From positions 1,488,001-1,552,000 of the forward strand of contig NZ_CP013611.1 of assembly GCF_001482385.1 (NCBI RefSeq): a DNA stretch of 64,000 nucleotides, given 5' to 3'. Below are positions 7,459 through 12,918 of the stretch, piece by piece (the stretch's first letter is position 1; each line of letters starts with the position of its first letter). Under the pieces are notes generated by a model, which saw only the letters and a program-made list of their open reading frames with translations, searched no databases and was not told where the DNA came from. Both the position numbers and the translations under genes were made by a program. This DNA is from Pseudoalteromonas rubra. GTDB lineage: Bacteria > Pseudomonadota > Gammaproteobacteria > Enterobacterales > Alteromonadaceae.

Positions 7459-8114
7459 TCACTGAGCACGGTATGACGTCTGAGGGAGAGACGGTTGTCT
7501 CGCCCATTTTGTACATCAGGCAGTATACTGACGCTTTATTACCCGCCCGCGCTCGTTTGAACCAGGGACTTGCCGTCAAGCAGCAGTGCCGGGCACTGGC
7601 CAATTTCGCACTACAAAGGGCCTGCGCCAATCCCTCAGTCAGGCTCAATCATACCAGGTACGGGCAGCCGTTTGGCGATCAGGGCCAGGGGAAGCCTGCT
7701 CAGCCTGTGTCCACCAGCCACAGCCAGAACTGGTATGCTGTTGCCACAGCACCGGCTCCCCTTGGCATCGACATTCAGGTCTACCGCCGCTTTTCTGTCT
7801 CCAACCAGCAGCGTTTGTTTGATCATAACGCGGTGTCGGCTGACATAATCACCCAGACCACGCAATGGTCTTTGTGCGAGGCCTATCTCAAATCCCATGG
7901 CCGGGGCTTACCATTTGATTTACGTACTATCCGCATCCAGCAACATGCAAGCCTGGGTGCCACCTCATGCGGACGCATAACAAGCAAAAATAACACGCTG
8001 ACACCTGCCAACTATTGGCTCTGGCAAACACTCTATTTTTGCTGTGCCGTCTGCATTACCGGTCACCAGGAGATAGTCCCCACACTCTCTATACACAATG
8101 GAAAACAATCATGA
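7455..8114 (+). CDS. pigL: PigL, Sfp-type 4'-phosphopantetheinyl transferase
   Basis: 219 aa. It should transfer phosphopantetheine from CoA to PigG and the PigH ACPs. Recognisable elements are STSHS (107-111, substrate binding), LGIDIQ (the Mg-binding GID motif) and WSLCEAYLKSHG (the W-KEA-K motif). Two positions are unusual: Gln where Glu normally follows GID-I, and Cys where Lys precedes the invariant Glu-Ala. The start shown is GTG, overlapping the pigK stop; an in-frame ATG at 7473 is an alternative that shortens it by six residues. The stop overlaps the preferred pigM start (ATGA at 8111-8114). Confidence 0.85.
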   Translation: MITEHGMTSEGETVVSPILYIRQYTDALLPARARLNQGLAVKQQCRALANFALQRACANPSVRLNHTRYGQPFGDQGQGKPAQPVSTSHSQNWYAVATAPAPLGIDIQVYRRFSVSNQQRLFDHNAVSADIITQTTQWSLCEAYLKSHGRGLPFDLRTIRIQQHASLGATSCGRITSKNNTLTPANYWLWQTLYFCCAVCITGHQEIVPTLSIHNGKQS

Positions 8115-9196
8115 CACACACTGCATTTGAACAAACACTGGCAGAGGCTGTCGCACTGGCACGGCTTGCGCCGTCTTCACACAACTGTCAGCCCTGGGCC
8201 GTTCACTTCGATCCCGTGATCCACTGTGGCTACCTGGCCATAGACAACCGCCGTAAACTGACCGGCCTGCCGTCATTAGAACGGGAAATGCTGCTCAGCT
8301 GTGGTATTTTCTTCCACTTTCTTGAGCAACTAATATACCTGCGCGGGTATCAGCTGCACTGGCGCTGGTGCGATGAGCAAGAGCAACAAGTATTGGCCGG
8401 CGAAGACCGAGCACTTATCCGTTTTATGCCGGGACCGGAGCAGGCGCACCAGGCAACCGCATTTGCGACTTTGTCTGAGCAGCTCCAACAACGCCATACG
8501 GTACGTTCAGCGTACCGTAGCACACTGCTCAGTGAGCAACAGCGTAACGAGCTGAGCACGGTGCTCAAACCTTACCCGGTGACGCTTGGGATATATTACC
8601 AGCAGACGCATGGCAAAGCGCTGGCTCACCTGACACAAACTTATGCCGGCCTGGATTTTGCCAACAAAGCCGCATGGCGCGAAACCTATAGCTATATTCG
8701 CTTTGATGAACGGCGCCAGTACGAAGATGGGTTTTACCTTCACAACCTATTTGGCCCGGTTTCTGGCGGTTTCAAAACCTTTTTTAAAGTCGCCTTTCAT
8801 CCTCACCTGAGTGGTCTGAATAAATTGCTCAGATTGCCAACCAAAATGGCCCAGGGCCTTGCTGAGCTGGTTGAAACCGGGCCGCACTACCTGGCGCTGA
8901 ATGTCAGTAAAGAAGGCGATGAAGCCCTTTTTCGTGCTGGCTTAGGGCTAGGTGCTTTATGGCTCAAACTACAGCAGTGGGGATGGGCAATGCACCCAAT
9001 CAGTGTACTTGTGCAACACGATTCTGCCAGAGAGGCCTTAGCAACCAGCCTCAGTCAGTCTGAGTTACCCATTTTTTTCGCCCGATTCGGCGAACCCGAG
9101 CAATCCGGTAGCCCGGCACCAAGGCGGCACTGGCAGAGCATTCTGGTCTCAGACACCCACAGTCTGACTAAGTCCACGCCGACTCAACGTGAGTAA
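8111..9196 (+). CDS. pigM: PigM, nitroreductase-like oxidoreductase (HBM to HBC)
   Basis: 361 aa with the start placed at ATG 8111. That start gives a 4-base overlap with pigL and begins MTHTAFEQTLAEAVALARLA. A longer frame from 8015 would overlap pigL by 100 bases and adds a non-family extension. RLAPSSHNCQPW near the N-terminus matches the FMN-contacting signature of nitroreductase-fold proteins. In Serratia, PigM oxidises 4-hydroxy-2,2'-bipyrrole-5-methanol to the carbaldehyde, the last step before PigF. It is the last recognisable pig gene here; no pigN homologue follows. Confidence 0.9.
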   Translation: MTHTAFEQTLAEAVALARLAPSSHNCQPWAVHFDPVIHCGYLAIDNRRKLTGLPSLEREMLLSCGIFFHFLEQLIYLRGYQLHWRWCDEQEQQVLAGEDRALIRFMPGPEQAHQATAFATLSEQLQQRHTVRSAYRSTLLSEQQRNELSTVLKPYPVTLGIYYQQTHGKALAHLTQTYAGLDFANKAAWRETYSYIRFDERRQYEDGFYLHNLFGPVSGGFKTFFKVAFHPHLSGLNKLLRLPTKMAQGLAELVETGPHYLALNVSKEGDEALFRAGLGLGALWLKLQQWGWAMHPISVLVQHDSAREALATSLSQSELPIFFARFGEPEQSGSPAPRRHWQSILVSDTHSLTKSTPTQRE

Positions 9197-9295
9197 CAAC
9201 AAAAAAGAATAAAAAATAAACCATTGCGTAGTTGTAAATTATGAGATAAAACAAATAGGTAATAAAAAAACAACTAACACGATAAGGAAAATAAA

Positions 9296-9496
9296 ATGAA
9301 GCTCATCAAAAAACAAATCAAAATGCTTTCTAAGGACACCACGCGCCTGCCTGTACTTATGACTGCCAATATCGCGGGTGGCAGACGTACCCGTGGCAAC
9401 GAGATTGAAAACACAGAAGAAAGCATTTGCACCGCGAATGCCCTTGCTTCAGCAAACGAAATCAAAAACTCTGCCCACAGCATTTGTACGGCCTAA
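9296..9496 (+). CDS. Putative RiPP-type precursor peptide with duplicated SICTA core
   Basis: 66 codons, AAGGA (9284-9288) seven bases before the ATG, and its own terminator 33 bases after the stop. The N-terminal 29 residues are lysine-rich and amphipathic and end in NIAGG, like leaders cut after a double glycine. The remaining 37 residues contain two copies of a 13-residue unit (residues 35-47 and 54-66; 9 of 13 positions identical), each NEI-x-N-(T/S)-x-x-SICTA. Ser, Cys and Thr are confined to conserved places, and the peptide ends exactly at the second repeat. I cannot name a family. No lanthionine synthetase, radical SAM, YcaO or C39 protease gene is in the window. A two-cysteine disulfide peptide is an alternative. 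Confidence 0.7.
   Translation: MKLIKKQIKMLSKDTTRLPVLMTANIAGGRRTRGNEIENTEESICTANALASANEIKNSAHSICTA
9398..9493 (+). repeat. Two 39-base core repeats in the putative precursor peptide gene
   Basis: Copies at 9398-9436 and 9455-9493, separated by 18 bases encoding NALASA. The protein-level match (9 of 13) is stronger than the DNA match: for example Ile-Cys-Thr-Ala is encoded by ATTTGCACCGCG and ATTTGTACGGCC. The silent differences suggest the copies are old and held together by selection on the peptide. Confidence 0.75.
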
Positions 9497-9528: not shown

Positions 9529-9551
9529 GCCGACTTTAGAGTCGGCTTTTT
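9529..9551 (+). terminator. Rho-independent terminator after the peptide gene
   Basis: GCCGAC (9529-9534), loop TTTAGA, GTCGGC (9541-9546), then TTTTT. It closes the transcription unit containing the peptide gene, and perhaps the pig operon if no terminator separates them; none is visible between 9197 and 9295. Confidence 0.85.
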
Positions 9552-11099: not shown

Positions 11100-12918
11100 A
11101 TGAAATTCAACAAGTCTACGATGTCACTCCTGCTTGCAGGTTTATGTGCCACAGCAACAGCTCAGACAACCGATGACAGATTCATCATCCAGGTTGATAA
11201 CAATAAAAAAGGCATAGTCAAAGCACTGGCACAGACAATGGGTGCACAGCTGCACATAGACGGTGATGGCTTCCTTGCCGCCACATTTAGCGGCAAAGAG
11301 CTCAGTGAGGTTAAGGGATTGCTTAACAACCCGCATATCAAGTTGATAGAAGTGGACCAAAAGCGTCAACTGATGGGTTTATATAATGATGATGCCGGCG
11401 ACCCTATGCAGCAACAGGTTGCCCCATACGCGTATTATCAAGTCGCAGGCAAACCAGGTGACCTTTGATGCTAATGCCGGCATGAAAGTCTGCGTCATCG
11501 ACTCAGGCCTGGATATGTCCAACCCGGATTTCATCTGGGGCAACATCACAGGAGATAATGACTCGGGTACTGGCAACTGGTATGAGCATGGGGGTCCTCA
11601 TGGCACCCATGTGGCAGGGACCGTAGGCGCTGCGGACAATAACATCGGTGTGATCGGCATGGCACCGGGTGTGGACATGCACATTATCAAAGTGTTCAAT
11701 GCGGAAGGCTGGGGTTACTCCTCTGATCTGGCACACGCAGCAAACTTGTGTAGTCAGGCGGGTGCCAATATCATCAGCATGAGCCTGGGTGGCGGCGGTG
11801 CAAACAGCACTGAGGAAAATGCTTTCGAAAGCTTTAACAATGCTGGCGGCTTGGTCGTTGCGGCAGCTGGTAACGATGGTAACAACGTCCGCTCTTACCC
11901 TGCTGGCTACCCGTCAGTCATGATGGTAGGTGCAAATGACGCTGATAATAACATTGCTGATTTTTCTCAGCTCCCAAGCTGTCAAAGCGGCAAAGGTAAA
12001 AATGTCAGTGAAGATGAAACCATCTGCGTTGAAGTCACCGCTGGTGGCGTTGACACTCTGTCTACCTACCCTGCTGGTCTTGCAACATCGTCCAGCCTGA
12101 GCGTTGATGGTGTAGCGTTTGCTTCATCTGCGATGGAAAACAGTGGCAGCGTTTCTTCGTCAGTATATTTCATGGGCACAGCAGAAGCGACCGACAGCTC
12201 GGCAAGTGGCAAAGTGTGCCTAATCGATCGGGGCAATATTTCTTTCCATGACAAAGTCGCCAACTGTGAAAATTCAGGTGGTGTCGGTGCCATTATCATC
12301 AATAATGAAGCGGGTATGCTCTACGGTACGCTGGGCGACACCAATACCACCAGCATCCCGGCAATAGGTGCAGCACTGGAGGACCGTACAGCTCTATTAG
12401 CCGCCACTAACGCAAACATTGTGATTGGTACTTCAGATTATGGCCTGATGAGCGGCACTTCAATGGCAACCCCGGCCGTGTCAGGTATCGCCGCCTTGGT
12501 TTGGTCAAACCACCCTGACTGTACTGGCCAGGAAATTCGTGCAGCGCTCAAAGCAACAGCACAAGATAGTGGTGCGGCTGGTAAAGACGTGTACTTTGGC
12601 TACGGCATCGTTAAAGCGGCTGACGCAGATGCTTACCTGACTGCCAATGGCTGTGCCGGTGGCGGTAATGGCGGCGACCTGCAGCTCAGCGCCTCAGGAT
12701 ACAAATCAAAAGGCAATAAATACGTTGACCTGAACTGGCAAGGCGCTTCTACCTCTCAGGTCGATATTTTCCGAAACGGTAGCAAGATTGTCACAACCAG
12801 CAACAATAATAGCTACACAGATAGCATCAGTGGTAAAGGTGGCGGTAGCTACACTTATCAGGTTTGCGAGCAAGGCAGCACATCTGCTTGCTCTTCAACT
12901 CAGACTGTTGTGTTCTGA
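11100..12918 (+). pseudogene. Secreted S8 (subtilisin-like) serine protease, interrupted by a one-base frameshift
   Basis: Frame A (11100-11468) holds a signal peptide (about 1-21, ending ATAQ), the I9-type propeptide and the first residues of the mature enzyme. Frame B continues from about 11446 to 12918 with the catalytic Asp in VIDSGLD (codon 11500-11502), the His in HGTHVAGT, a PA-like insert carrying cysteines, the Ser in SGTSMATP (codon 12460-12462) and an ~80-residue C-terminal domain. Removing one base near 11445 joins the frames as YQVQANQVTFDANAGMKV, the normal S8 sequence before the Asp strand. All catalytic residues are intact, so the lesion is recent or a base-call error. The gene is monocistronic, with a terminator after it. 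A functional product would be an extracellular alkaline protease (inference). Confidence 0.85.

Follow-up and report, generated by a model that had tools for sequence, protein, structure and literature searches.

The short open reading frame at positions 9296 to 9496 (+ strand) of this Pseudoalteromonas rubra DNA raises two questions, whether it is a gene at all and, if it is, what becomes of its product. The window, i.e. the whole stretch of DNA that was analysed, comprises 64,000 nucleotides. A first-pass annotation, made from the letters alone, had described the frame as the precursor of a ribosomally made peptide, and the architecture it gave is borne out by the translation: 66 codons plus stop, a basic leader of 29 residues with a GG end (9296 to 9382) that closes in AGG, and two units of 13 residues with 9/13 identity, the second of which finishes exactly at the C-terminus. 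Unit 1, NEIENTEESICTA, spans residues 35-47 (9398 to 9436) and carries Thr40, Ser43, Cys45 and Thr46; unit 2, NEIKNSAHSICTA, spans residues 54-66 (9455 to 9493) and carries Ser59, Ser62, Cys64 and Thr65. The units differ at 12/39 nucleotides and about half of these differences (about 6.5) are synonymous, as the earlier remark on silent sites had it.

The good ribosome site that had been claimed is the Shine-Dalgarno sequence AAGGAA (9284 to 9289, + strand), which is kept in the six other intact copies of the gene and is typical of its paralogues. AAGGAAA was the sole clear word common to the regions upstream of the paralogues (17/30, as against a maximum of 8 in 50 simple shuffles), and simple word counts gave no shared regulatory motif upstream of these 30 genes beyond it. 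A scan of the + strand between 9100 and 9700 found no sigma-70 promoter-like site. The gene had also been credited with its own terminator. A terminator-like hairpin (9529 to 9546, + strand) followed by a T run that ends at 9551 is present, and a comparable hairpin and T run lie 3' of the peptide copies in genomes G050 and G093, but the hairpin is weak taken alone, because the terminator scan found 1 where 0.6 are expected in shuffles, and no hairpin was seen by eye in the 87 bases after the copies of G061, G106, G094 and G053. The gene starts 99 bp past ORF 8015-9196, the last of a run that contains pigJ (NCBIfam name), and a Bcr/CflA-type exporter (MFS) begins 147 bp after it. A subtilase with a PA domain is encoded at 11386-12918 of the window; it stands near the exporter in loci L008, L009 and L011 and is unmatched in L010.

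Homologues of the peptide were sought in 108 Pseudoalteromonas genomes, and matches at E <= 1e-5 were found in 12. Syntenic copies with E <= 1e-18 occur in 8/108 genomes, the own genome included, at a single syntenic place, and the other four matches (G013, G025, G032 and G042; E 5e-7 or weaker) mainly cover the leader. Four loci of the named collection hold the same peptides as G093, G050, G094 and G053 and were counted once. The exporter lies downstream of the peptide in 8/8 syntenic genomes and the upstream ORF is found in 7/8. In G093 (and in L008, which takes in 10 kb upstream) the peptide and the exporter are kept and 0/4 tested upstream prodigiosin-side genes adjoin them, and a link to prodigiosin was therefore rejected.

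Seven of the syntenic copies are intact, and with 21 pairs compared their pN/pS is 0.07 (leader) and 0.31 (core), i.e. these copies are under purifying selection; in 2/21 pairs, own-G094 and G061-G094, the core value is about 1 or more. The Shine-Dalgarno sequence and the reading frame are conserved over the intact copies. In other words, the homologues and the excess of synonymous change that the first-pass annotation had named as checks are both found, with leader and core conserved, and the ORF at 9296-9496 is real and beyond chance, as its syntenic copies and the purifying selection show. The doubled SICTA core is not invariant, contrary to what had been supposed: the SICTA of unit 2 is retained in 7/7 intact copies, whereas QTMRTT, which has no Cys, stands in the first unit of G094 and G053 (2/7). 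The copy in G051 (L101, about 1480-1690) has lost its start codon and its units read RICTA and SICAA. It is probably broken, because a stop stands two codons ahead of the usual start and there is no ATG there, and the gene would therefore be dispensable in G051.

The window gene is not alone in its genome. When five own-genome leaders were made into a profile, 36 places in this genome matched at E <= 10, and with 29 leaders in the profile the number rose to 41, each at E <= 0.003; the window leader, itself one of the 29 profile rows, scored E 1.2e-10, and these own-genome values are flattering because the profile was trained on leaders of the same genome, so that other genomes are the fair test. 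Compared with most of the others, the window leader is shorter by two residues, and it is without the TP of the common TPxVAGG ending. Contig C1 holds 35 of the 41 places and C2 holds 6. An ATG at the usual place, with the frame running into a core, is present in 38; two places have no ATG there (C1:4179600 and C1:1370936) and one is short, ending after 23 codons. The window peptide belongs to no NCBIfam or Pfam family at cut-off and four paralogues tried have none in NCBIfam. It had been called not obviously a member of any named family; this needs correction in so far as the leader places it in a large family of precursors linked to LanB, albeit one that curated profiles leave unnamed.

Leaders and cores were compared in 40 of the 41 own-genome peptides, the short one being left out. 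The leaders have an average identity of 0.51, a figure that is partly so by construction, whereas the cores are no more alike than shuffled cores (0.34 vs 0.32). Cys makes up 0% of the leaders and 10.6% of the cores, and Ser/Thr 17.8% of core residues. Cys is present in 38/40 cores, each with Ser/Thr before Cys, and 35/40 have two or more; 2/40 are without Cys. In a separate observation, locus L112 (C1:4178000-4180500) holds three leader genes within 2 kb, two of them with nearly identical cores, and this trio is a recent local duplication; the second of its genes has no in-frame ATG at the usual place. We also note that an ORF of 304 aa with identical first 60 residues, a transposase by eye, recurs within 20 kb of leader genes (L012, L014 and L053), one occurrence being beside the LanKC gene considered below; it could bear on the spread of the precursors.

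Enzymes that might act on such peptides were found 1.2 Mb from the peptide gene, where HlyD, C39-ABC, LanC and LanB are encoded in one direction (C1:2732138-2740112). Searches of the own genome with LanC-like and with C39 sequences gave two places each, and PF05147 at E <= 0.001 is found only in the stand-alone LanC and in LanKC. LanB has 1049 residues, covers positions 2-649 of 649 of PF04738 and 1-255 of 255 of PF14028, and matches the lantibiotic dehydratase chain 5ehk and NisB chains. The C39 domain retains Cys31, His104 and Asp120 in an alignment with solved relatives, and we take these to be its catalytic residues. LanC (PF05147, E 1.4e-37) has WCYG at 267 and CHG at 317, which align with the same motifs of a LanC-like chain; a C-gap-CH triad of zinc ligands is described for LanC in the part consulted of PMC10352776. 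Judged from its sequence, the cluster appears intact. Thus the earlier proposal of a GG-leader precursor modified by enzymes encoded elsewhere gains support from this distant LanB/LanC cluster. For export, the neighbouring MFS protein and a C39 transporter had both been suggested: a C39 transporter exists, and the MFS protein was rejected, being a Bcr/CflA-type exporter, whereas the C39/HlyD pair adjoins LanB/LanC.

It is conspicuous that the cluster carries no precursor gene in the usual place. Between C39 and LanC the own genome has a gap of 177 bp, which holds no leader in coding orientation, and a two-strand scan of the region gave none there. The order HlyD-C39-LanC-LanB is kept in 8/8 relatives (G050, G051, G052, G053, G061, G093, G094 and G106), and no leader lies between the cluster genes in any of these eight. 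A precursor is thus missing from the usual place in this lineage, and with none beside lanC in the own genome and the eight relatives the cluster would therefore serve mainly or only genes elsewhere. Just 1/41 leader places falls within 70 kb of the cluster, about 3.6-3.7 kb off and with a Cys-free core (L051 18702-18851). A weaker match at L051 17297-17452, 2.2 kb beyond HlyD (E 0.015 and 0.0044 in two scans), has one Cys within the leader and one in the core, and it has no tblastn match in the cluster regions of the eight relatives; it may still be a cluster-linked precursor of the own genome. In G106 a leader gene is found beyond HlyD, at a distance of about 1.7 kb. G051 gives a weak match (E 0.028) that overlaps the LanB end and was judged spurious. 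Further out from HlyD of the LanB cluster, at about 10 kb, there is also a very long ORF (L052 5019-11999; at least 2326 aa), which by eye is like a nonribosomal peptide synthetase.

Over the genus the leaders go together with LanB. LanB (PF04738) is found in 51/108 Pseudoalteromonas genomes, with a single match in 47/51, and leaders (E <= 0.01) are found in 56/108, namely in all 51 LanB genomes and in five others. The five have one weak match each, all versions of one GG-less sequence, and were judged spurious; the remaining 52 of the 57 LanB-less genomes have no leader match. Fisher's test of leader against LanB gives 2e-25 with the five kept and 5e-32 with the five dropped, values that are not real probabilities, since the genomes share ancestry and the test took no account of a tree. 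With the best 75 candidates scored per genome, so that counts are lower bounds where more exist, the LanB genomes have from 1 to at least 74 leader matches each (median 22, sum at least 1353), and 41/51 have ten or more. Among the matches listed, at least 13/51 LanB genomes have a leader no more than about 2.2 kb from LanB.

Beyond the genus, leaders at E <= 1e-4 were detected in 4/295 genomes of the order, two of them outside the genus, and in 30/345 genomes of the family, 20 of them outside the genus (best 23 candidates per genome), some of the family-level matches being single and near the cut-off. The first-pass annotation had advised looking for conserved neighbours such as LanB and LanC, and lanC and lanB do stand beside leader genes in four genomes of other genera (4/6 regions outside the genus: L122, L123, L144 and L145). 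L123, which comes from a different family of the order, has a leader gene in the very gap that separates C39 from LanC; in L122 a pair of leader genes is followed by lanC-lanB-hlyD-C39. The two regions from genus g107 (L143 and L146) have leader genes without lanC or lanB in the region; the g107 genomes hold 14, at least 23, at least 23 and at least 23 leaders, so dispersal is not confined to Pseudoalteromonas. At L143 14280-14474 (G446, g107) there is a leader peptide with a doubled TGPSFCT/TGPTLCT module, similar to the doubled SICTA of the window peptide; four leader genes follow one another there, this one among them, and the 20 kb region contains no LanB.

The spacing of core residues was examined in 116 distinct leader-bearing peptides from the loci, which are related and hence not independent. 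Cys occurs in 111/116 cores and in 5/116 leaders. Ser/Thr residues are enriched at 3 to 7 positions before Cys (90, 83, 89, 101 and 68 vs 59, 59, 54, 51 and 50 expected) and show no enrichment at 1, 2 or 8 before it; on the other side of Cys, clear enrichment is confined to +2 (86 vs 61), and +1, +5, +6 and +8 are depleted. Such spacing fits rings that would be closed from an upstream Ser/Thr, and in the window peptide Thr40 and Ser59 are each five residues before a Cys. The module [ST]xx[ST](hydrophobic)C[ST] occurs in doubled form in 6/116 peptides, i.e. in five versions of the window peptide and in one from g107 (L130/L143), which likewise has two module units within one core.

Given the leader shared by about 40 places, the enzyme cluster and the way in which leader and LanB occur together across the genus, we read the window gene as coding for a putative precursor of a class I (LanB) lanthipeptide, in trans to a single enzyme set encoded far away, with a probability of roughly 0.86. 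Lanthionine, azoline and disulfide had been proposed side by side; of these, lanthionine has the best support. The basic leader would recruit LanB, which would activate Ser/Thr of the core with glutamyl-tRNA and then eliminate water, and LanC would use Cys45 and Cys64 to close thioether rings. As ring partners, Thr40 and Ser59 (i to i+5) would be likeliest, or else Ser43 and Ser62. Cleavage after Gly29 and export of the product would fall to the C39 transporter and its HlyD partner. Dehydration, ring pattern, cleavage and export, like any biological role, are inferred in this scheme.

We have to consider whether the peptide could do without the lanthionine enzymes. An unmodified double-glycine peptide of the class II bacteriocin or colicin V type would need the leader for C39 export only and would join its Cys pair in a disulfide, which would suit the GG end of the leader, the two Cys of the window core and the C39-ABC/HlyD pair in the genome. 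Leaders track LanB in 51/51 LanB genomes, a co-occurrence that does not separate LanB from C39, since the genus-wide enzyme scan was for LanB and LanKC. It speaks nevertheless against this kind of peptide, as do the leader genes adjoining lanC/lanB in several species and the enrichment of Ser/Thr upstream of Cys, and the loss of the unit-1 Cys in two intact copies in which unit 2 stays is a misfit with a disulfide between the units. We consider the unmodified peptide improbable.

A different enzyme is even harder to reconcile with the data. The genome has an intact-looking class III LanKC (RamC_N-kinase-LanC, contig C2), about 9 kb from another leader gene, which might modify the peptide in place of LanB/LanC. 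LanKC is however found in only 10/108 genomes of the genus, all of them LanB-positive, and 41 genomes have LanB and leaders without LanKC; for this reason LanKC cannot explain the leaders and its use here is very improbable indeed. In L053 (8151-15754, C2) LanKC is followed by an unknown ORF of 296 aa, a prolyl oligopeptidase and an ABC transporter (weak HMA_2 match). Finally, the gene might be a selfish paralogue or one in decay, which functioned as a precursor in the past and whose production or maturation has ended. The lost start codon in G051, the eroded unit 1 in G094 and G053 and the lack of a sigma-70 promoter-like site in the scanned + strand would be in keeping with decay, whereas the low leader pN/pS over the seven intact copies and the kept Shine-Dalgarno sequence and frame point the other way, and we regard decay as quite unlikely. 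The gene at 9296-9496 is thus best read, as far as sequence comparison can tell, as one member of a dispersed repertoire of LanB substrates, with a doubled ring module. For the wider picture, it seems reasonably likely that in 51/108 species genomes one LanB-LanC set serves up to at least 74 dispersed and rapidly diversifying precursors, and that the cluster in this lineage is without a precursor of its own.

Class I lanthipeptides of Pseudoalteromonas are already published, as seen in the excerpts of the papers compared here. Pseudorosins A-C and the dehydratase PsfB of Pseudoalteromonas flavipulchra S16 (PMC12819058) resemble the window system in genus, class and LanB-type dehydratase, and pseudorosin as a name could, at a guess, allude to an analogy with prochlorosin. 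PciA of P. citrea DSM 8771, a precursor that was modified with its enzymes in E. coli (PMC9993889), is likewise class I and of the same genus; it is presented in the excerpt as one gene cluster. P. viridis BBR56 has a class I cluster, with LanB, LanC, C39 and an MFP subunit, that is called most similar to thalassomonasin (part of PMC11015633), and thalassomonasins A/B and the viridisins of Thalassomonas are class I products of marine relatives, as here, with two or three precursors that are described, in the part compared, as clustered (PMC11433236). The literature compared, with the original papers on pseudorosin and viridisin outside the comparison, yielded no description of dispersed LanB precursors in these bacteria. 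The leader box FNLD is absent from the window leader, which reads KMLSKD; the passage concerned gives FNLD as one example among class I leader signatures (PMC10352776), and we therefore treat it as typical, not as defining.

The closest parallel in organisation is that of the prochlorosins and synechococsins, for which the excerpt of PMC10783134 describes one promiscuous LanM, with 29 precursors for ProcM and 79 for SyncM, and genes scattered over the genome that share a common GG leader and have variable cores. The present system is similar in having one enzyme set, tens of scattered precursors, a common GG leader and variable cores. Genome organisation thus strongly suggests that it works like the prochlorosins. 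That the peptides are themselves prochlorosins is not supported, because LanM and the Nif11-type leader are absent: the prochlorosins, going by the same excerpt, belong to class II and to cyanobacteria, whereas here LanB and LanC are separate, the leader is another one and the hosts are gammaproteobacteria.

Dispersed precursors can escape searches made around enzyme genes. A large survey was limited, according to the part consulted, to the seven genes that flank a LanC protein on each side (PMC7268733); the leader-based search used here gave at least 1353 matches in 51 genomes. If LanB and LanC accept these peptides, they would make up a library of natural substrates for a synthetase that depends on glutamyl-tRNA. 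Moreover, genome editing is reported for P. flavipulchra in the excerpt of PMC12819058, and the puzzle posed by the prochlorosins, i.e. why a bacterium should make dozens of lanthipeptides, would become testable in this genus.
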